In this document: in pieces, positions 1 to 9,698 of the stretch
Position numbering within the stretch: the stretch's first letter is position 1
Layout: each line of letters starts with the position of its first letter
Source of the DNA: Darksidea phi
Lineage: Eukaryota > Ascomycota > Dothideomycetes > Pleosporales > Lentitheciaceae
DNA: 64,000 nt
Direction of reading: 5' to 3'
NCBI GenBank assembly: GCA_030770425.1
Contig: JASJFT010000040.1
Location: 186,001-250,000 of the forward strand
Made by a program: the position numbers and the translations under genes
The notes under the pieces: model-generated
Told to the model about the DNA's origin: nothing
The model's database searches: none
The model's input: only the letters and a program-made list of their open reading frames with translations

Positions 1-306
1 TGTCTTCATGGGACGTAATGTTTACTGTGAACCGGTGTCTTCACTAATAACATTGACCTTAAAAGCTCTCACACACCTGCTAGCTAGAACGAGCCACGAC
101 CTAGATAGGAACTATGACGTATATAAATCACAAGGAGCTGGAAGGCGCTGAGTTCAGACTATTGATTCGCGTACATTTCTTCGCATACAGTTCGACCTTC
201 AGAAACACAACTGGTAAATTCAAATGTACATGCATGAATGATACCCATGCCATGCTACCACCAATCGAAGATTGCCCCCTTCATAAGCATATCAATCTCA
301 ACCTAT

Positions 307-1397
307 TCATGTGAAAGCCATACTCTTCTTGATCTCAGCGATTGCTAGCGCAGGGTTCAAGCCCTTAGGGCATGTCCTTGAGCAGTTGAGAATAGTGTGA
401 CAGCGATACAAGCTCATGCTATTGTTTAAAGCGTCCTGGCGTTCGGCTTTCTTCTCGTCTCGCGAATCGGCAATCCAGCGGTACGACTGGAGGAGGACGG
501 CGGGGCCGAGGTATTCTTCCTGGTTCCACCAATATGAGGGGCAGGAAGTCGAGCAGCAGGCGCAGAGAATGCATTCATAGAGACCATCGAGCTTCTTGCG
601 CTCTCCCTTCGTTTGTCGGTATTCACGACCCTGTAATGATGATGTCAGTGGGGCTCAGCCGGGATGCCATGCTAAACTTACATCTGGTGAAGGAGTTGTG
701 CGTTGAAGATACGGCTTAACCGAACGATACTGCTTGTAGAAAAGTGTCATGTCAGGTACCAGGTCTTTGACAATGTACATGTGTGGAAGAGGGTAAATGC
801 GCGACTCTTTGGCCGTCTCGGTGGGAATACGGCCTGTTCCACGTCGGTTAGCGTCTCGATCCTGCTACTGATATGATCTTTCGACATACAAAGACATGCC
901 AGAGTGTTGACGCCATCAATGTTCATAGCACAGCTTCCGCAGATTCCCTCGCGACAACTTCTTCGGAAAGTCAGAGTAGGATCGATCTCGTTCTTGATCC
1001 GGATCAGCGCATCTAGCATCATAGGGCCCGTCTTGTTTAAATCTAGAGTATACGATTGCATGCGCGGCTTCGCGGTGGGCTCGTCCGGGTTCCAACGGTA
1101 GATGTGGAATGTCTTGATCTTCGCATCTGTGCTCGGTTCGGGTTCCTTGACCGTGGACGTCTTACTCTCCGGAACAACCTTACGAGCAGGGTCCGGTACA
1201 GTCTTTTCGGCAACCTTGGAGATGGGGTCGCGGGCGCTGGTGTCGGTCACGGAGGCGAAGCCACGGGAGAAGACCGCGGGACGGAGGGCTGCTGCAAAGA
1301 CGTCAGTGGAGCTCCAATCGTGCCGAAATGCCTTTGTAGACCTGGTCGTACCTGTCCGCGTCGTAGCCAGACGAGCGAGAACGCGCGTGGTTGCCAT
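307..1397 (-). CDS. SDHB: Succinate dehydrogenase iron-sulfur subunit (complex II), 307 aa, 4 exons
   Basis: Iron-sulfur subunit of mitochondrial succinate dehydrogenase, which passes electrons from the flavoprotein to ubiquinone at the inner membrane. Exons are 1397-1352, 1291-890, 833-682 and 630-307; the introns are 60, 56 and 51 nt, and the second has a GCTAAC branch site. The N-terminus (about 30 residues, rich in R/A/T, starting [10 protein letters not shown]) looks like a mitochondrial presequence. The 2Fe-2S ligands are visible as CREGICGSC (C127, C132, C135) and C147. The 4Fe-4S and 3Fe-4S ligands are in [11 protein letters not shown] (220-230) and [11 protein letters not shown] (277-287). 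The start was chosen at MATTR because an upstream in-frame ATG (1421) adds a His/Pro-rich stretch atypical of a presequence. Length fits the family. Residues P231, N236 and H278 correspond to the ubiquinone-pocket positions changed in SDHI-resistant fungi, and all are wild type here. Confidence 0.97.
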
Positions 1398-1765
1398 TGT
1401 GGGTGGGTGGTGGTTGTGCAATTGCTTGGATGGCGAACTGAAGCGAACTAGAAGTCGTTACGTGCACGAAGTCGAAGACCTCGGGCCAAGCGACGAACGG
1501 CCGCTGGGTCAGCACTTCAGCCGCCCTGTGATTCGTCAGAAAGCGACATGGTCAGTGCTTCCCTTTCGGGCCATTTCGGCATACGCCACACCTTTGTCAT
1601 GAACACCCGGCTTTCTCCACTATTTGAGTTTAATTTCTTCGCTTCAACATGGGAACCTACACGGTTGGGTGACGAATACTACGCCTCGTTACAAAAATCT
1701 ACCCAGTCACCATTTCTCTTGTCCATCAGAGTGATTGCACGGTACCAGCCATGTGACAGACCCTC

Positions 1766-2788
1766 ATGTCCCGGGTCCGATGCTCTACCTTCACAACCAG
1801 GTTTTCATCACTTGGACGCTCTTTAGTCCGACAGCACCAACAGCGCTCCTACAATACCGGTATCATGTCCTCGCCGCTCTCCTTTTCCAGTCCTGTTCAT
1901 TGGATATTGGACTGGGACGGTACCATCACCAAGCGCGATACTCTAGATGCCCTAGTCAACATTGCTGCGAAGTGCAAGCCAGATTCGCCGGTCCTCACAC
2001 AATGGAAGTGCGTCACTGAAGCCTACATTGCCGACTATGAAAGCACACTTAAGATTCACGCATCTGGCGGAAGACTTCCCTCTTCGATATCTGAAGAGAA
2101 GGCTTTGCTGAAGATACTGGAAGAGGTCGAGCAGAGGAGTATCAATCGCGTGTCTGAATCGGGCATCTTTGATGGATTGACGATAAAAGATTTGGACAAC
2201 GGTGCTGCCAAAGCGATCGCGTCTGGAGAGGTCAAGCTGCGAGATGGTTGCGGCGACTTTCTGCATCTTGTTCGGTCACGCCCTCAAGGTCAAGACAGGA
2301 AGGCAGACATGATAAGTATCCTCAGCGTGAACTGGAGCCAGCGATTTATTTCTGCATGTTTGAGGGCCGTCCGCGAGGACTTTGCGCAAATGTTATCGCA
2401 TTCTGTCTACTCGAACGAGCTGGAGGGTCTCGAACATGGAACACGTACAACCGGACGTATATGTGTCGATAAAGATGTCAGGATCATCTCCAGCCGTGAC
2501 AAGCTAGCCCGCCTTGAACTCCTGCGCAAAAGCACCTTGCGTCAAGGGAAACCGATTCCAGTGGTATATGTTGGCGACAGCTGCACTGATTTCGAATGTT
2601 TGCTGGCTGCGGACTTGGGGATTTGCATCCGAGACGATCCGATGACTAGCGCGCAGAAGAAATTGGCCGATTCGCTAGCAACAGTCGGTGTTTCTTGTGC
2701 TCGTCTTCAAGATGTGGAAGAGGGGAACTGTGTTGCATGGGTTGAGGATTTTGATGAGCTCCGGAGATGGGTACATAGGACCAATTGA
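1766..2788 (+). CDS. HAD-superfamily phosphatase-like hydrolase, 340 aa (or 307 aa from the second ATG)
   Basis: Haloacid dehalogenase-fold hydrolase, probably a phosphatase; substrate unknown. Motif I is DWDGT (residues 49-53, nucleophile Asp in the DxDGT pattern), motif II is SVNWS, and motif III is VGDSCTDF followed by the hydrophobic stretch ECLLAADLGICI, all in the order expected for the superfamily. It is a single exon. Two starts are possible. ATG 1766 adds 33 residues rich in R, S and T with no acidic residue, which resembles a mitochondrial presequence. ATG 1865 (MSSPLSF) gives the bare enzyme. The gene is divergent from SDHB, with about 370-470 bp between start codons. Fold and class are clear from the motifs; the physiological role is not. 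Confidence 0.85.
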   Translation: MSRVRCSTFTTRFSSLGRSLVRQHQQRSYNTGIMSSPLSFSSPVHWILDWDGTITKRDTLDALVNIAAKCKPDSPVLTQWKCVTEAYIADYESTLKIHASGGRLPSSISEEKALLKILEEVEQRSINRVSESGIFDGLTIKDLDNGAAKAIASGEVKLRDGCGDFLHLVRSRPQGQDRKADMISILSVNWSQRFISACLRAVREDFAQMLSHSVYSNELEGLEHGTRTTGRICVDKDVRIISSRDKLARLELLRKSTLRQGKPIPVVYVGDSCTDFECLLAADLGICIRDDPMTSAQKKLADSLATVGVSCARLQDVEEGNCVAWVEDFDELRRWVHRTN

Positions 2789-3340
2789 ATGTTCCACAAA
2801 CTCCAGCAGCTCGATCAACCACCGGTTCTCCAGCACTTGAGGCCTCCTCAAAATACAAATCCAACGGCGAATGTTCGCTAACTATATACCTAGTCAAATC
2901 GGGATCTGGCTCTTAGGGTACAATATGCTACTAAATGCGTAAGGCAGTTTTGCATAAGCCGCAATAGGTCATGTTGTTGGGAGGCTAGTCCTATAGAAAA
3001 GCGTTGTGAACACTAAGGACGGGGGGGCATGGCGCCACACTTATTCATCAAGTCGGGTTGCTATCTGTCTATATATTCAGGAACATTGTATCAAACCGCG
3101 TCAATCATCCTCCGACTATTGTCGTAGATCATGGTATGATAACTTCATCTTCGCCGAAGTCCAACCCTCGACCCAACGCAGCAAGTTATCCCATCCTCCG
3201 TTACACATGTTCCTTCCCCTACCATGAAGTTATTGCCCGCACATTCAAACGTCCTACTAGCGTTGCACACGCACAAAAATCAAGCAACTCCTCCAACATC
3301 GCCACCACACTCTGACCAAATCGAACAACACTACACGGTC
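2789..3340. other. Intergenic, nothing recognised
   Basis: Region between the HAD gene and the tRNA terminator. Short ORFs here have no recognisable motif, and I see no repeat or RNA structure. Confidence 0.6.
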
Positions 3341-3352
3341 AAAAAGCAAAAA
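3341..3352 (-). terminator. Pol III terminator T-tracts for tRNA-Glu
   Basis: On the minus strand, two runs of five T (3352-3348 and 3345-3341) lie about 10 nt downstream of the tRNA 3' end. This is the usual RNA polymerase III termination signal. Confidence 0.75.
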
Positions 3353-3361
3353 GATGGCGCT

Positions 3362-3514
3362 TTCCGACACCGGGAATCGAACCTATTGGAGATTAGTAGA
3401 GTTTTAGATGGCTAGTAACAGGCTATTGCTTACCCGGGCCTTGCCGGCACTACCACGACGATGTAGTTACTCTGCAATGAGAGCGGCAAATCCTAGCCAC
3501 TAGACCATATCGGA
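3362..3514 (-). tRNA. tRNA-Glu (anticodon CTC) with canonical intron plus a second T-stem insert
   Basis: Reads from 3514 down to 3362. After removing two inserts it gives a 72-nt tRNA. The acceptor stem TCCGATA pairs with TGTCGGA (one G-U), with discriminator A at 3362. The D-stem GTCT pairs with GGAT. The anticodon stem TGCCG pairs with CGGCA around loop CTCTCAC, with CTC at positions 34-36. The T-stem CCGGG pairs with CCCGG around TTCGATT. Insert 1 (3477-3448, 30 nt) lies directly after A37, the canonical tRNA intron site, and holds a GAG that can pair with the anticodon. Insert 2 (3433-3383, 51 nt) interrupts the T-stem between positions 52 and 53 and is listed separately. The A-box region and the B-box GGTTCGATTCC are intact in the DNA. 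A TATATA run about 40 nt upstream and downstream T-tracts support an expressed gene. Confidence 0.9.
3383..3433 (-). other. 51-nt spliceosomal-intron-like insert inside tRNA-Glu
   Basis: Reading on the minus strand, the insert begins GTAAGC, contains TACTAAT (3398-3392) about ten nucleotides before the end, and ends CAATAG. It therefore carries a good fungal 5' splice site, branch site and 3' splice site, at the same length as ordinary mRNA introns in this window (47-63 nt). The boundaries can slide by one or two G residues, so GT..AG is one of three equivalent placements. Excision restores CCCGG|GTTCGATTCCCGG, a perfect T-arm. The hexamer CAATAG occurs near both ends of the insert. Confidence 0.8.
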
Positions 3515-3552
3515 TGTTGTTGCTGAATATGGAGCTTTTTGGGCCGCATGTC

Positions 3553-3561
3553 ATATATATA
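3553..3561 (-). promoter_or_regulatory. TATA-like element upstream of tRNA-Glu
   Basis: An alternating ATATATATA run lies about 40 nt upstream of the tRNA 5' end. This is the position where TATA elements assist TFIIIB at tRNA genes in several fungi. Function is inferred from position only. Confidence 0.45.
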
Positions 3562-4064
3562 CTACATACAAAGGGTTTACTCAGATTATAGGACTAGAAT
3601 GGCTTAATGTAGTTTGTATGCGGTGGGTATGATTGATCGTGGTCATGGTCAAATTAAGTCACTGCGAGTGGAAATTTTCAAAAGGGGGGACCCACTTCCG
3701 AGTCCAAATCTACATGCAGTAAATACAGAAATAGCATTGGAAACGAGAGTAAAAGACAGTATGCCGCTAACGCTAGAACCAAAACATACGATATCCTGCC
3801 CGGTTCCTTTCACAGCTGAATTTGAGGAACCCCCAGAAAGACATCGTATTGCTGGACTGGCGTTACATCAATTTAAACATTTGAAACCTCCATGCTAACA
3901 TCCTAGAAGGATAACACACGACAGTGGGAAGAGATAGGCCAATTTGCGAAGATATTGGAAAGTTAACAGAGATGCGTCATCGTTATCGCAGAAGGAAAGG
4001 AGTCATGGGAAACAACAAATCTCAACCACACTCGGGCCCCAAAAATCTGAAGTGGGAAACGGTG
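3562..4064. other. Intergenic, nothing recognised
   Basis: The only ORF of note (3614-3898, plus) has no recognisable domain and low coding character. No repeat seen. Confidence 0.5.
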
Positions 4065-6634
4065 TTACTCCGCGACCGGTGTATCGGCGCGTTCTGGCTC
4101 CGTCGTCGGGTAGGGGGTGATACCGAGTAGCTTCATCCCGTTCTCTAACACTACGCGAGTTGCTTCGAAAAGCACGAGGTGACCTGGCCCAAACACGATA
4201 TCCTTCTTTTCTCGCTCAGCCACCTGTATCTCTAACTCTCCTTCTGGTTTTACTGGTTTAGTAGTAGCGCCTCCTTCTGGTTCTACCGCTTCAGCAACTG
4301 CTTCTCCTTCTGGATCTACTGCTATAGCATAACCATCTCCTTCTGGCTTAGCTCCTTCAGCATCAGCATCTCCGTCTGGTTTTACTGCTTCAGCAACTGA
4401 TTCTGGTTCTGGTTCCACCGCTTCAACAGCAACTTCTCCTTCCGGTTCAGCTGCTTCGGCGACGGGCTCCGGTTCGGCTGCTTCGGCGACGGGCTCCGGT
4501 TCGGCTGCTTCGGCGACGGGCTCCGGTTCGGCTGCTTCAGCGACAGGCTCCGGTTCGGCTGCTTCAACGACAGGCTCCGGTTCGGCTGCTTCAACGACAG
4601 GCTCCGGTTCGGCTGCTTCAACGACAGGCTCCGGTTCAACTGTTTCAGCATCGGCATCTCCTTCTGGTTTTACTGCTTCCGCATCGGCATCTCCGCCTAG
4701 TTTTACTGCTTCAGCATCTACATCGCTTCCCGGGGGCAGTACATTCGCTTCTTCTTCTTCTTCTTCTTCTTCTTCATCCCTTTTCAAGCACTCCCCCAAT
4801 TGCTCGATAACACTGGCTAAATACGTGACGATAGCCGCCGGCTCGAGAGACTGGTATGTGGCATGAGTGATCTCCGGATACTGAGCTAGAAGACGGAGGA
4901 GGTTTGTTGGGTTTTCTTCCATGAAGAGCTCATAATCCTCGTCCGAAAGCTCTAAATGGGCAGGGCGGTCCTTGAGGATCGAACACAGCTTGGTATACCA
5001 GTACTGCATATCCGGTCCCGTGCCGGGCTTGAACGCAGTCATTGTGCTAGTGTCGAAGGAGTGGGTAGAGGTTGTTCTGGTTGATAGCTCTTGGGCGACT
5101 AGGGCGCTGACCCCGAGAATCTTTGCGCTTTCAACGGGTCCTTTGAAAATGGCAGACTTTTCTCCGTCCGCCTCCAATGCAGCCGCCATAGCCTCCTCGC
5201 AATGTCTAATGATCGCTTGCGGCCTGTACGATTTTTCCAGCTTTTCAGCCATCTTCGAGGCCTCGCTGAAGCGCAGATGTTGAACCTTGTCGGCAAGCTC
5301 TGCCATATCGAGCGCTTTCAGAATGTGATGTAGATGCGCGAAGTGCACGCTGTTGTCGTTCGCCGCAACGATGATCATCTTGTCAAACTCATATTTCCTG
5401 GACCGTTCCAGCACAGCCGCAAGATCGCGAAGAAGGTACGTGGTCCCTCCATTCCTATCTCTGATGATTGCCGTGCCCGCTTTCAGCCCGATCTCCTGCA
5501 TGTGAACCACCCAGGCTCCCGCGCCCTCTTTACAGATGCCTTTGTCCTTCAACATCTGCTCAATCTCAGCCATCGTATCTGGGCTGACCTCGGATTCGCC
5601 GGTGTACTCGTCGAACGTCACGCCCAGTTGCGAGTTGAAGTCTCTATAATTTTCGATGTTGACATCCCGAACGCGCTTCCAGAATGCAACGGCTTCTTCA
5701 TCTCCATCTTGCAGCTTCTTAAACGCTGCATTCCGCTCAGCAAATATGCCCTGGTTCTCTATCTCCAGTTGCACTTCACCTTCATCATGCCCATGCTTCG
5801 CCGCTTCGTCGCGAGCTCGCTTGCTAGCCTCTTTTTCGGGCTGAAATAATTCCTTAATCTGATGGTGAACGTCGAGAAGGTGTCCAATATCATTGGCTTC
5901 GTACTCAGCCTCGTTACCAAACCTCTCCCAACCCACTTTGAGCAGAGCAATGTCCTTGCCCCAATCTCCAAGGTAGTTGATTCTTGTTACATCCCATCCC
6001 ATGTTCTCATGGAACCTGCTTACAAATTCGCCTAGGATGGTACTCCGAAGATGCTTTCCTTGGAACTCGCTCGCAATGTTTGGGGAAGAAAACTCCACGA
6101 TAAGCTTCTTTCGTCCCTCTTCGGGGGAGGAGGGGCTTCGCAATCCAAGAGCCGCATCATTGCCATACGTGCTCTTGCGGTCCAGTATGAAAGGTAGCAA
6201 GAGGTACGCGAGCGGCTTAGCCTCGAGAAAGATACGGAAATGCACCGTTTCGAGGAACGGTAGGGGAAAGAGCGGATGGTCCCGTGGGAACTGAAAGGGA
6301 TTAGATACACATACACGTGGGCACGAGGAAAATATGAACGGGTTCAAACCTTTTTCAACAGATCAATGGCCACTTCGGCAGCCTTGAAGCCTGGCCGGAG
6401 CTTCGGAAGAATGACTGCTAAATCTCCGTTGTAGATGTTATTAGGCCATTGAATGGACTTATATGCAGTCTCCGGGCTACACTCGACGAGGCTACCCAGA
6501 ATATCGGCCAGATAGATACGCCAAAGGTCGAGAGGCTTGTTCAACACATCAGCTGCGTCGTAGCTGGGAAGAGGCACAGTCAAATGTAGCAACTCAAGGC
6601 GCTTCTCGAGCCCTGAAGTATCAAGCGTCATCAT
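4065..6634 (-). CDS. Divergent arginyl-tRNA synthetase-like protein, 836 aa, 2 exons
   Basis: Exons 6634-6350 and 6290-4065; the 59-nt intron has a CTAAT branch site and a TTTCAG acceptor, phase 0. The fold of a class I ArgRS is clear: the N-terminal Add1-like region (ADVLNKPLDLW), EFSSPNIA, LRSTI, NYLGDWGK, YTGESEV and TTYLLRDLAAVLER, then a C-terminal anticodon-binding segment ending VVLENGMKLLGITP. Three things are odd. The HIGH-type motif, usually HAGH after SSPNIA, reads QGKH (residues 172-175). The usual MSTRKG (KMSKS-equivalent) block is absent, and the aligned stretch reads SEASKMAEKLEKSY (near 435). About 190 residues of acidic E/P/A repeats (roughly 597-787) split the anticodon-binding domain. 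It may be a paralogue with weak or no aminoacylation activity rather than the housekeeping enzyme. Upstream initiation is not excluded. Confidence 0.85.
4450..4638 (-). repeat. Coding 27-bp minisatellite, 7 copies
   Basis: Seven tandem 27-bp units inside the ArgRS-like gene encode EPEPV(A/V)EAA repeats. Four units carry the A variant and three the V variant, so two sub-lineages were each amplified as a block. The unit length is a multiple of three, so copy-number change keeps the frame. Confidence 0.95.
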
Positions 6635-7420
6635 GAGTTCAAAGCTCCCTTCCGATCAGGTAAGGTACTCGTAGTAGGACAAAACAGTTGCAGCGGCGAT
6701 TCAAGACATTGGGCGCCCTAGAGTCACAGATGATTTCGGGATAGAAAGGTCGCCCGCACCGTACGTTGGGCACCGATAAGAAGGCATACCGCCCTCTTGT
6801 GCCAATACAACTGCAGTGTTCGCTGGTCACTCATTCTCAGCCTCATCCTATGCCACGTTGGTGCGCATGGGCCTCGTGTTTCCCCGTGATTGGTCATGAC
6901 ATCGGCATATGCGTCAGCACACGTTTAATGAAAATGCAAAGCTCACCTACATGACCAGAGTGGTGTTCATCATAGCAATTGATTTGAGCAATACGCGAGA
7001 CGCCGTCCAACTGCTATTGAAAATCTTGCCTTATCCTCGGCAGTGCAAATGACCGTTTCACCGGTCGCAAGCAGGTCGTTGAATGTTGAGACAAGGCGAA
7101 ACGAGGCGATTGAACGAGTCCCAAATAGGCACTGAGATCCCTTACAGGATTAACTCCAGCGAAATATCGACTCTCCATATTCGAAGGAATTATGATCCTA
7201 ACAGAAGAGCCACCCTTCGACGCGGATCGCGAAGACAATCCTATAGGAAAAAATCAACTCATGTGGATAAAAAATAATTGACCGTTATTATAGGAACTAA
7301 ATACATACAATTGCACGAGGGTATCATGGGAAGTACTATAGTAAGCCATACAAGGAAATTCGTAGCAAAACAGTCTACACCATAAGCCATCAGAGCATCA
7401 TGCGTCTGTTCACTGGCGTT
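6635..7420. other. Intergenic between ArgRS-like and CorA-like genes
   Basis: Upstream region of the ArgRS-like gene and 3' flank of the next minus-strand gene. No gene, RNA or repeat recognised. Confidence 0.6.
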
Positions 7421-9698
7421 TTAGGGCCCACAAATGGTCTCTTCTGTATCTGCGCGAAACAGCCTCCTTCTACGAAGTCTTTCCCAAAGTCGCAGGTTGC
7501 GCGGCTGAAATTTTGCTTTCGTGTCTTTGACCGTCTGCCAGACGTATCGAGGTCGTATTCGGCCTTCCTCGAAAGAGATGAGGAACCGTAGCAGAACGAA
7601 AACGATAATGATTGCACCAGCGAAAGACGCTCCAGTTCGTTGAAAGCCTCCGAATGGCTCTGGGATGGCGAAGAACGCCGAAACGATAGCGAATGGTGAT
7701 ACCCAGACGACCATCAACTTTGCATTGAAGCTGTTCACCTTCGCGACCTCGTTGCTCACCTTCGCGACCTCGTTGCTCTCCTTCGCGACCTCGTTGCTCA
7801 CCTTCGCGACCTCGTTGCTCTCGAGCGTCAAGCTGAGCTTAAGGATATCGGCTCTCGTTTGGCAACGCCGAACCAGAGTGTCTAGCCTTCGCTGTAAGAC
7901 TGCTAACTTGTCAAATTTTGCTTTGATCTCGAGAATCATCGGGCCTAAGCCCTGACTATTCTTCTTCGATACTTCGGGTATGTTGTCGAAGTCGCGGAAA
8001 TATCCAATGTCTCCATCAGCAGAGCAAAACCGCTTCCATTCCTCATTCGTCGTTGCGAGCGCATCATGGAGATCCCAAAGTATGGTCAGAGTCTTTTGCA
8101 TCCGATCAAATGTATCTTTGTTGGCCTCGGGACCAAGTGAAGGCGTCTTAACAGAGGGGGGCTTATCGGTGTCTTTTCGGATGCCGATCTCGCACTTGCG
8201 GATAAGCTTAGCCCATTCACCAACGATTTGGTCCAGTCTTCTAGATACAACCAACAGAAAGTACTCTCTTGGGTTCCACGTGGGAAGATTGGCATCGACA
8301 GTACGAGCACCGTCCGCCGCAATCTGATCGACGACCGTGCCGTTATAGTCGAATTCGGATTCGCCCATATCTCTGTCCTCGTCAAAATCGGTGTCGCTAA
8401 ATGCATAGGCGACCCAGCGGCGGTCCGCTACACCACAGATTGTAACAGCGATGTGCGCTTCGTGTATACCTAGCGGTGGCTCATCATGCATGGGAGGTCT
8501 ATCATTGACCAGGAATGAAACATCTGTCCAGGTCCTACGGGGCTTAATAAAGACTCCGCCTTTGAAATACTCCTTCTGGTGGCCCTTTCTGAGTGCATAG
8601 AAAGGCATATGGAACTGCATTTGAAAAACAGTATAGTTCCCCGTCTTATGATGAGTTAGCATCGTGCATTCTACACGCCGTACGGATGAACATACCGATA
8701 TATTAACGCTTATTGATGTTTGTATTGCGAGGTGGTTGAACATGATCTCTTTCAAGGATGGAGCCTGATGGGGGGGAGCAGTCTCGGTGAGTGCGAAGAT
8801 GAACGAAGGACTCAAATTGAAGATGGAACTGCCAAGGTTAGTTCACTAGAAGAATATGGTATACACGATCTTGAGACTTACATCAATCGCCTGTCCGCGT
8901 CTGGTAGTTCAGAGTGTCCAAATTGCTGGGAACATGAGGTCAGTGAAATGAATTTGCAAACCGAAGTTTAATGGGCTTGGCCAACCCCAGCCGGAGCATA
9001 TGAATATATCCATTAGAACAGGAATGTAGGAATTGGCTGTTGTCAAACCGGAGACGTCATTGTACCTTTTCCTTTAGACCTTGGAAGAGCGCTAATGCGC
9101 TTAACGGCGGTTCGTACATTCTATAGGGCAGGCCCTTGTTTGCACTTTGTGTAGTGCTGTTGTGACTAGTCCCGTGTTCAGGAGAGGTATCGTCCGAAGT
9201 TGCCCCTGGAGACAGAGGGCTGTCATTTACGGGCGGTGCTGGGGCTTTTGACGCCAGGGCTTCCAAATTTTGTGCAGAAGAGTGAGATTTAGCCGAATTG
9301 CAATAGGATGAGTACAACCGATCATCAAGCCATGCCGTGCTTTGTTGACTTCCTCCAGGTTGCTCTAGAGGGGATGGAGGCACCCCACTGCAGAAAGCGG
9401 TGATCTCCTCCTCTTCAATAGACGGATCGTCGTCATCATAGCCTCGTAGGAAGAGTTCAAGCCGGTTGGGCTTATCTTTTGGCACGGACTCAGATGGATC
9501 TGCGCCTGCCGGTTTCTGCTTTGCTGAATCCGTCGGTGGGTGTTCGTCGTTTGGTAGCGCAGTTGATGCAGCGTCCAACCTAAACTCAACAAGCGACTTT
9601 TCCTCCAAAGGATTTCGATCTTCTGAGAATTTGGCAGGCCAAATTTTCTGGAAGTGCTCCAGAGAGGAGCCACTGACTGGGTTCGGTTGCCCAAGCAT
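7421..9698 (-). CDS. CorA-like fungal membrane protein, paralogue A, 677 aa, 4 exons
   Basis: Exons 9698-9066, 8925-8882 (44 nt), 8828-8696 (133 nt) and 8644-7421; all phases close. Residues 1-211 are low-complexity and acidic/serine-rich, with AFCSGV and AWLDDR blocks shared with paralogue B. Next come DADRRLI, a conserved tract (SPSFIFALTETAPPHQAP), FHMPFYALRKG, an aspartate-rich region, and a helical region with ILWDLHDALATTNEEWKRF. A heptad-like SNEVAKV repeat (about 542-575) precedes two hydrophobic segments (about 580-598 and 609-627) and a basic tail. This layout, a large N-terminal domain then coiled coil then two close TM helices, resembles fungal proteins annotated as CorA-like Mg transporters. 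No GMN motif follows TM1, so transport is not supported by sequence. It is one of two paralogues in the window; intron 1 (140 nt) is the least certain boundary. Confidence 0.8.
7740..7823 (-). repeat. Coding 21-bp minisatellite, 4 copies
   Basis: Four tandem 21-bp units encode (V/E)SNEVAK heptads just before the first TM helix of paralogue A. The units alternate between two variants (GTG or GAG codon at the V/E position). Seven-residue periodicity suits a coiled coil. Confidence 0.95.

Follow-up and report, generated by a model that had tools for sequence, protein, structure and literature searches.

Introns of nuclear tRNA genes are regarded as the domain of a single endonuclease. mRNA-type introns have been described in U6 snRNA, a pol III transcript, in fission yeast and other fungi (PMC10484740). 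The available part of that paper gives reverse splicing near the catalytic site as their proposed origin, and a title cited there states that removal of the U6 intron is impaired in pre-mRNA splicing mutants (PMC10484740). In the rDNA of lichen fungi, a short spliceosomal intron (57 bp) was removed by yeast from pol I transcripts, as described in the available part of PMC8527467. Cyanidioschyzon merolae and nucleomorphs have extra tRNA introns in the D and T arms besides those at 37/38. In Cyanidioschyzon merolae, the D and T introns are supposed to be removed before the anticodon intron, according to the accessible text of PMC9602550.

In this study, we analysed a tRNA-Glu(CTC) gene in a window of 64,000 nt from Darksidea phi (contig JASJFT010000040.1). 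The gene contains two inserts (Table 1). Judging from its sequence, the 51-nt insert is very probably a U2-type spliceosomal intron in a pol III-transcribed tRNA gene, and it is one of at least nine in the genome. The likeness to U6 is that an mRNA-type intron lies in what is here a putative pol III transcript. U6 is itself a spliceosomal RNA, whereas the hosts here are tRNAs, with at least nine genes and six sites. The lichen rDNA introns are likewise short spliceosomal introns in a structured non-coding RNA, but polymerase and RNA differ, and the word tRNA does not occur in the available text of PMC8527467. The D- and T-arm positions recall Cyanidioschyzon merolae and nucleomorphs. However, the ectopic introns of Cyanidioschyzon merolae are tied to a bulge-helix-bulge and the endonuclease (PMC4090602), while the genes described here have spliceosomal signals and no such motif. 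The first intron of the window gene (3477-3448) is a canonical 37/38 tRNA intron; the second differs from it in position and signals. Among the matches listed in searches of open-access full texts, no tRNA gene with a spliceosomal intron came up, and spliceosomal introns in tRNA genes appear to be new.

Table 1. Features of the window tRNA-Glu(CTC) gene (window coordinates) and further tRNA genes of the genome with mRNA-type inserts (contig).
Feature	Location	Strand	Description	Found by
tRNA-Glu(CTC) gene, whole	3514-3362	(-)	two inserts: 30 nt and 51 nt	
5' exon, positions 1-37	3478..3514	(-)	identical across the three Glu(CTC) genes found	
A box in 5' exon	3497-3507	(-)		
Canonical 37/38 intron, 30 nt, after A37	3448..3477	(-)	clearly similar in window gene, L002 and L003	
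Middle exon: anticodon 3' stem, variable loop, T stem up to G52	3434..3447	(-)		
mRNA-type T-arm intron at 52/53, 51 nt	3383..3433	(-)	GTAAGC...TACTAAT...TAG; missing in L003; 50-nt counterpart in L002	
Branch-site-like TACTAAT	3392..3398	(-)	10 nt from branch A to intron end; coordinates by hand	
3' exon: G53, T loop, T stem 3' strand, acceptor 3' strand	3362..3382	(-)		
B box GGTTCGATTCC	3373..3383	(-)	11/11 against the consensus	
TATA-like element upstream of the gene	3551..3562	(-)		
Two downstream runs of five T, pol III terminator-like	3341..3352	(-)	coordinates by hand	
Ala(AGC) L300	C79		54-nt intron at 52/53 and 37/38 intron	splice-signal/B-box pattern
Ala(AGC) L303	C132		49-nt GTACGT...TACTGAC...TAG at 58/59, no 37/38 intron	BLAST
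Initiator Met L335	C312		53-nt GTGAGT...GCTAAT...TAG at 54/55	BLAST
Ile(AAT) L336	C177		47-nt GTAAGT...TACTGAC...AAG at 25/26	BLAST
Leu(AAG) L345	C34		49-nt GCAAGT...CCTAAC...TAG in D loop, 15/16; GC-AG intron	BLAST
Arg(ACG) L355, L356	C9:124500-124670, C9:109935-110100		51-nt GTAAGT...TTCTAAT...TAG at 30/31 and 10-nt 37/38 intron	BLAST

The coordinates and both inserts given by the first-pass annotation proved exact on re-examination. It had taken the first insert for an ordinary 30-nt 37/38 intron, and this insert is indeed alike in all three Glu(CTC) genes and contains a GAG able to pair with the anticodon CTC. A Sen intron is found one nucleotide 3' of the anticodon; the 51-nt insert sits elsewhere, at 52/53. 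The register of this insert is ambiguous by a few bases and is pinned by GT..AG. The TATA-like element, the A and B boxes and the T runs that had been noted for the gene are all there. ARAGORN called no tRNA in the uncut window and tRNA-Glu(CTC) once the 51 nt were removed. With both inserts, the gene scored 26.4 bits against the Rfam tRNA family, where the cut-off is 29. The folding z of the uncut transcript was -0.54, and that of the L002 gene was -2.69. The window also contains an arginyl-tRNA synthetase-like ORF at 4065-6347 (-) (PF00750, PF05746), in which the matched segment of the anticodon-binding domain is followed downstream by an acidic repeat stretch (EPEPVVEAA and variants).

A search of the source genome (51.35 Mb, 477 contigs) found three Glu(CTC) genes: the window gene, L002 and L003. 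Their exons are identical over 72 nt. L003 has no T-arm insert and scored 47.9 bits with Rfam; this natural insert-free copy defines the borders of the insert, which agree with the 51 nt at 52/53 and the GTAAGC, TACTAAT and TAG first proposed. L002 carries a 50-nt insert at the same T-arm site, with GTAAGT...AACTAAT...TAG. Beyond the splice signals, the inserts of the window gene and L002 are unlike each other (alignment score 8.0; shuffled mean 9.6). Conservation between these two inserts is confined to the features that the spliceosome requires. The same signals, a body similarity at the level of shuffled sequence and the same place in a second Glu(CTC) gene indicate that the insert is more than chance. 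As to whether other intact Glu(CTC) genes exist, one insert-free copy does (L003), and L002 has an insert at the same site. The window Glu(CTC) gene alone need not be indispensable, since L003 exists.

The layout described for the window gene is real, but it does not belong to a single odd gene. Such inserts are present in at least nine tRNA genes on eight contigs, the window gene included: two Glu(CTC), two Ala(AGC), initiator Met, Ile(AAT), Leu(AAG) and two Arg(ACG). The inserts affect at least six anticodon families and occupy six sites: 15/16, 25/26, 30/31, 52/53, 54/55 and 58/59. A single assembly error was rejected, as the nine genes lie on eight contigs. Site numbers and the assignment of Ala(AGC), initiator Met and Arg(ACG) were made by hand, and the Arg and initiator Met identities use features of the eukaryotic tRNAs. 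The claim of an mRNA-type intron in a live tRNA gene, which would need two splicing machineries, fits the sequence and is strengthened by the eight further genes. As the first-pass annotation had supposed, no described fungal counterpart of the layout came up among the open-access texts listed in the searches.

A pattern combining splice signals with a B box had three matches in 51.35 Mb, all of them in tRNA T arms (the two Glu genes and Ala L300); the reversed pattern had none. A relaxed pattern gave 10 matches against 2 in the reversed control. Three were known genes, one was the decayed Arg copy on C124, and two others inspected by eye were not tRNAs. A loose pattern occurred in at least 120 stretches of viral contigs and at least 118 of genome contigs. 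A stricter scan of the viral contigs gave one match, which we took for a pair of neighbouring tRNA genes on a virus contig. BLAST with insert-free tRNA queries recovered 6 of the 9 genes (Ala L303, initiator Met, Ile, Leu and both Arg); the Arg query derived from the decayed copy that the relaxed pattern had located. Ten tRNA sequences used as a joint query returned only a tRNA-Pro with a canonical intron.

By hand count, 46 nuclear tRNA genes without obvious decay were located, 9 of which have such an intron. In this non-exhaustive survey, the family search covered 63 of the 1735 candidates, and the choice of genes leaned partly towards intron-bearing copies. The 46 comprise 36 of 41 places in one tRNA search together with 3 Glu, 4 Ala, 1 Pro and 2 Arg genes. 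Copies on C86, C391, C77 and C51, at C135:210075, and the Arg copies on C423 and C124 were omitted as decayed; two more Rfam hits (L033 and L290) lie outside the count. Three tRNA-Lys(CTT) copies look decayed. L338 (C86:2950-3500) has a D-loop insert with GCAAGT...TACTGAC...CAG, L339 (C391:8000-8600) resembles a C-to-T mutated version of it, and L340 (C77:11650-12200) has GTAAGT...CTAAC in the T arm and has lost the T loop. In L028 (C51:47971-48038), which resembles a tRNA-Thr gene, the T loop is shortened. The order of the mitochondrial tRNA genes is similar to that of Pezizomycotina.

The nine inserts share one anatomy. They are 47-54 nt long, eight have GT..AG borders and one has GC..AG, and every one contains a CTRAY branch motif, with 9-11 nt after the branch A. 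Thus the 5' GT/GC, 3' AG and branch motif of U2-type introns are found in all nine. For seven inserts, the chance of G(T/C)..AG falling in one register is approximately 1e-12 at equal base frequencies, an estimate that includes one insert (Ala L300) itself located via a GTA..AG pattern. The first-pass annotation had likened the T-arm insert to introns of neighbouring mRNA genes, and ends, branch motif and spacing do match several in-frame mRNA introns of the window (length/branch distance: 51 nt/9 nt, 48/10, 47/9, 58/10, 55/11 and 60/12); the scan that listed these demanded CTRAY and gave 15 rows, with lengths of 47-110 nt and branch distances up to 28 nt. Exact removal of a U2-type intron should restore the product. 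The spliced exons equal an insert-free copy in 6 of the 9 genes (Glu 2, Ala 2, initiator Met and Leu), and Ile L336 has two differences from the insert-free L013, which leave one T-stem mismatch. Insert-free copies exist for five of the six anticodons (Glu, Ala, initiator Met, Ile and Leu). TTTT occurs in none of the nine tRNA introns versus 1 of 11 hand-picked mRNA introns; these counts speak neither for nor against pol III selection.

The B box is preserved. In the 52/53 introns, the final intron G substitutes for G52, which leaves GGTTCGATTCC in the DNA. With the terminal AG of the intron adjoining G53, the box is whole, and it is uncut (11/11 against the consensus) in all three genes with this site. 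The 58/59 intron of Ala L303 begins GTAC, and the B box reads GGTTCGAGTAC (10/11). The initiator Met intron splits the B box yet carries TGTTCGATTCC inside (10/11); this intron-borne box is better than the box of the spliced gene (9/11). The Leu and Arg B boxes were judged by eye. Runs of at least five T lie within 110 nt of the intron end in 8 of the 9 genes, and in Leu six T lie further on. The retention of the B box, noticed post hoc, would be expected if only promoter-sparing insertions persist. Contrary to this pattern, the Leu intron at 15/16 interrupts the A box.

After insert removal, ARAGORN reported the expected tRNA in 6 of the 7 genes tested. It misnamed the spliced Ala L300 as Arg and the spliced Arg pair as Thr, because the program placed the canonical intron elsewhere. 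On uncut genes it called some tRNA in 4 of 7, with other arms. The Rfam scores of the other uncut genes were 40.9 for each Arg, 35.9 for Ile, 31.0 for Ala L300, 28.4 for initiator Met and 26.9 for L002, and Ala L303 and Leu had no score; 4 of the 9 uncut genes pass the cut-off and 5 fall below. The five insert-free copies measured scored 47.9-64.6 bits. In the accessible text on tRNAscan-SE 2.0, looking for non-canonical introns is described solely under the archaeal mode (PMC8450103).

Could the insert-bearing genes be dead copies, broken by random or mobile insertions, while translation runs on the insert-free ones? Insert-free genes are there for five anticodons, a review says that insertions in the D or T arm of nuclear tRNA genes in eukaryotes supposedly denote pseudogenes (PMC4090602), and four decayed-looking copies (Lys on C86, C391 and C77; Arg on C124) carry inserts or remnants. 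We nevertheless consider this unlikely. Random insertions would not keep a 5' site, a branch motif and a 3' site in each insert, the exons match an insert-free copy in six genes, the B boxes score 10-11 of 11, and both intact Arg(ACG) genes found contain the insert. For the window gene, the assignment as a tRNA pseudogene was rejected on exons equal to the insert-free copy and on intact A and B boxes. Another reading takes the introns for recently copied members of a single mobile, introner-like element, a matter of origin only that is compatible with spliceosomal removal. Several genes and a narrow length range agree with it, as do 4 of 21 pairs among seven introns that exceed z 2 (best Ala L303/Ile L336, z 3.6), in shuffles with 6 nt at the start and 13 nt at the end of one intron kept fixed. 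But the other 17 pairs are not above z 2, and a 154-nt gene query matched only the three Glu genes in the genome, and we consider a recent common element very improbable.

Removal by the tRNA splicing endonuclease, as is thought for the ectopic introns of Cyanidioschyzon merolae, has the least to recommend it and is extremely unlikely. This red alga does have T-arm (53/54) and D-arm tRNA introns (accessible part of PMC9602550). The bulge-helix-bulge that is held decisive there (PMC4090602) is missing from all nine inserts in every register, and the class of bulge-helix-bulge ectopic introns was rejected on this ground. The nearest approach (Glu and Ala L300, GT..AG register) has 3 of 4 central pairs, 0 or 1 of 3 outer pairs and 0 of 3 inner pairs. 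The eukaryotic Sen endonuclease supposedly takes its measure from the body of the tRNA (PMC4090602). This body is unformed in these precursors, and the common GT/GC, CTRAY and AG would be left without a role. The new cleavage route that had been offered as an alternative to a second splicing machinery is thus unsupported. Self-splicing group I or II introns were rejected as well: an Rfam scan of window positions 1-8000 with E up to 1 returned tRNA and one weak lncRNA match, and the insert has only 51 nt.

Spliceosomal removal remains the best explanation, and tRNAs with these inserts probably need the mRNA-splicing machinery for maturation. Pol III would transcribe the window gene under the control of its TATA-like element and its A and B boxes. 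The unspliced precursor would be unable to form the T arm. The U1 and U2 snRNPs would bind GTAAGC and TACTAAT, and the spliceosome would excise the 51 nt as a lariat and join CCGG to GTTC. Cloverleaf folding, end processing and Sen removal of the 37/38 intron would come after this step. RNase P and tRNase Z, like Sen, use the tRNA body; we infer the spliceosome-first order because this body is absent before removal. The anatomy, the exon identity to insert-free copies, the signals, their recurrence and the lack of a bulge-helix-bulge are direct readings; from these, we infer transcription, spliceosomal excision and the order of steps. By analogy with U6, an origin of the tRNA introns by reverse splicing is a possibility. 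In the source genome, U6 (100 nt) and SRP RNA (265 nt) each match their family end to end, with no room for an intron. We counted these intronless RNAs against our explanation, together with the possibly dispensable genes, the cut Leu A box, the decayed insert-bearing copies, the Ile mismatch, the ARAGORN and Rfam calls on uncut genes and the misnamed spliced genes. For the five anticodons with insert-free copies, the insert-bearing genes could be dispensable.

Arg(ACG) differs in this respect. Two genome searches found four copies: two intact genes on C9, both with the intron, and decayed copies on C423 and C124; no intact insert-free gene was found in these searches. By eye, the C423 copy lacks the 5' acceptor strand and has several G-to-A changes, with the D arm aligned, and the C124 copy has a broken acceptor and D arm and a 50-nt GTATGT...TACTAAC...TAG in the variable loop. 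The two intact genes lie on opposite strands, 14.6 kb apart, with three differences, all in introns. Arg(TCG) and Arg(CCG) genes are present in the genome; their tRNAs leave CGU and CGC unread under the usual decoding rules. Of the 335 Arg codons in 11 ORFs of the window (5802 codons in total), 138 are CGT or CGC. Removal of the Arg(ACG) intron may be indispensable. A divergent Arg(ACG) gene, sequence lost to masking or contigs absent from the assembly could overturn this.

On balance, we lean towards the wider view that spliceosomal introns invaded tRNA genes at many sites, that some of them complete or carry the B box, and that, with all intact Arg(ACG) genes (CGU/CGC codons) interrupted, translation has come to require spliceosomal processing of a pol III transcript. 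Considering the Rfam scores and the description of tRNAscan-SE, such genes may have been overlooked in other fungi. If true, the finding adds a class of tRNA intron, means that short pol III transcripts are routine substrates of the spliceosome, and offers a natural test of spliceosomal intron gain in non-coding RNA. If the assembly is complete at Arg(ACG), the spliceosome would be needed for translation in this fungus.
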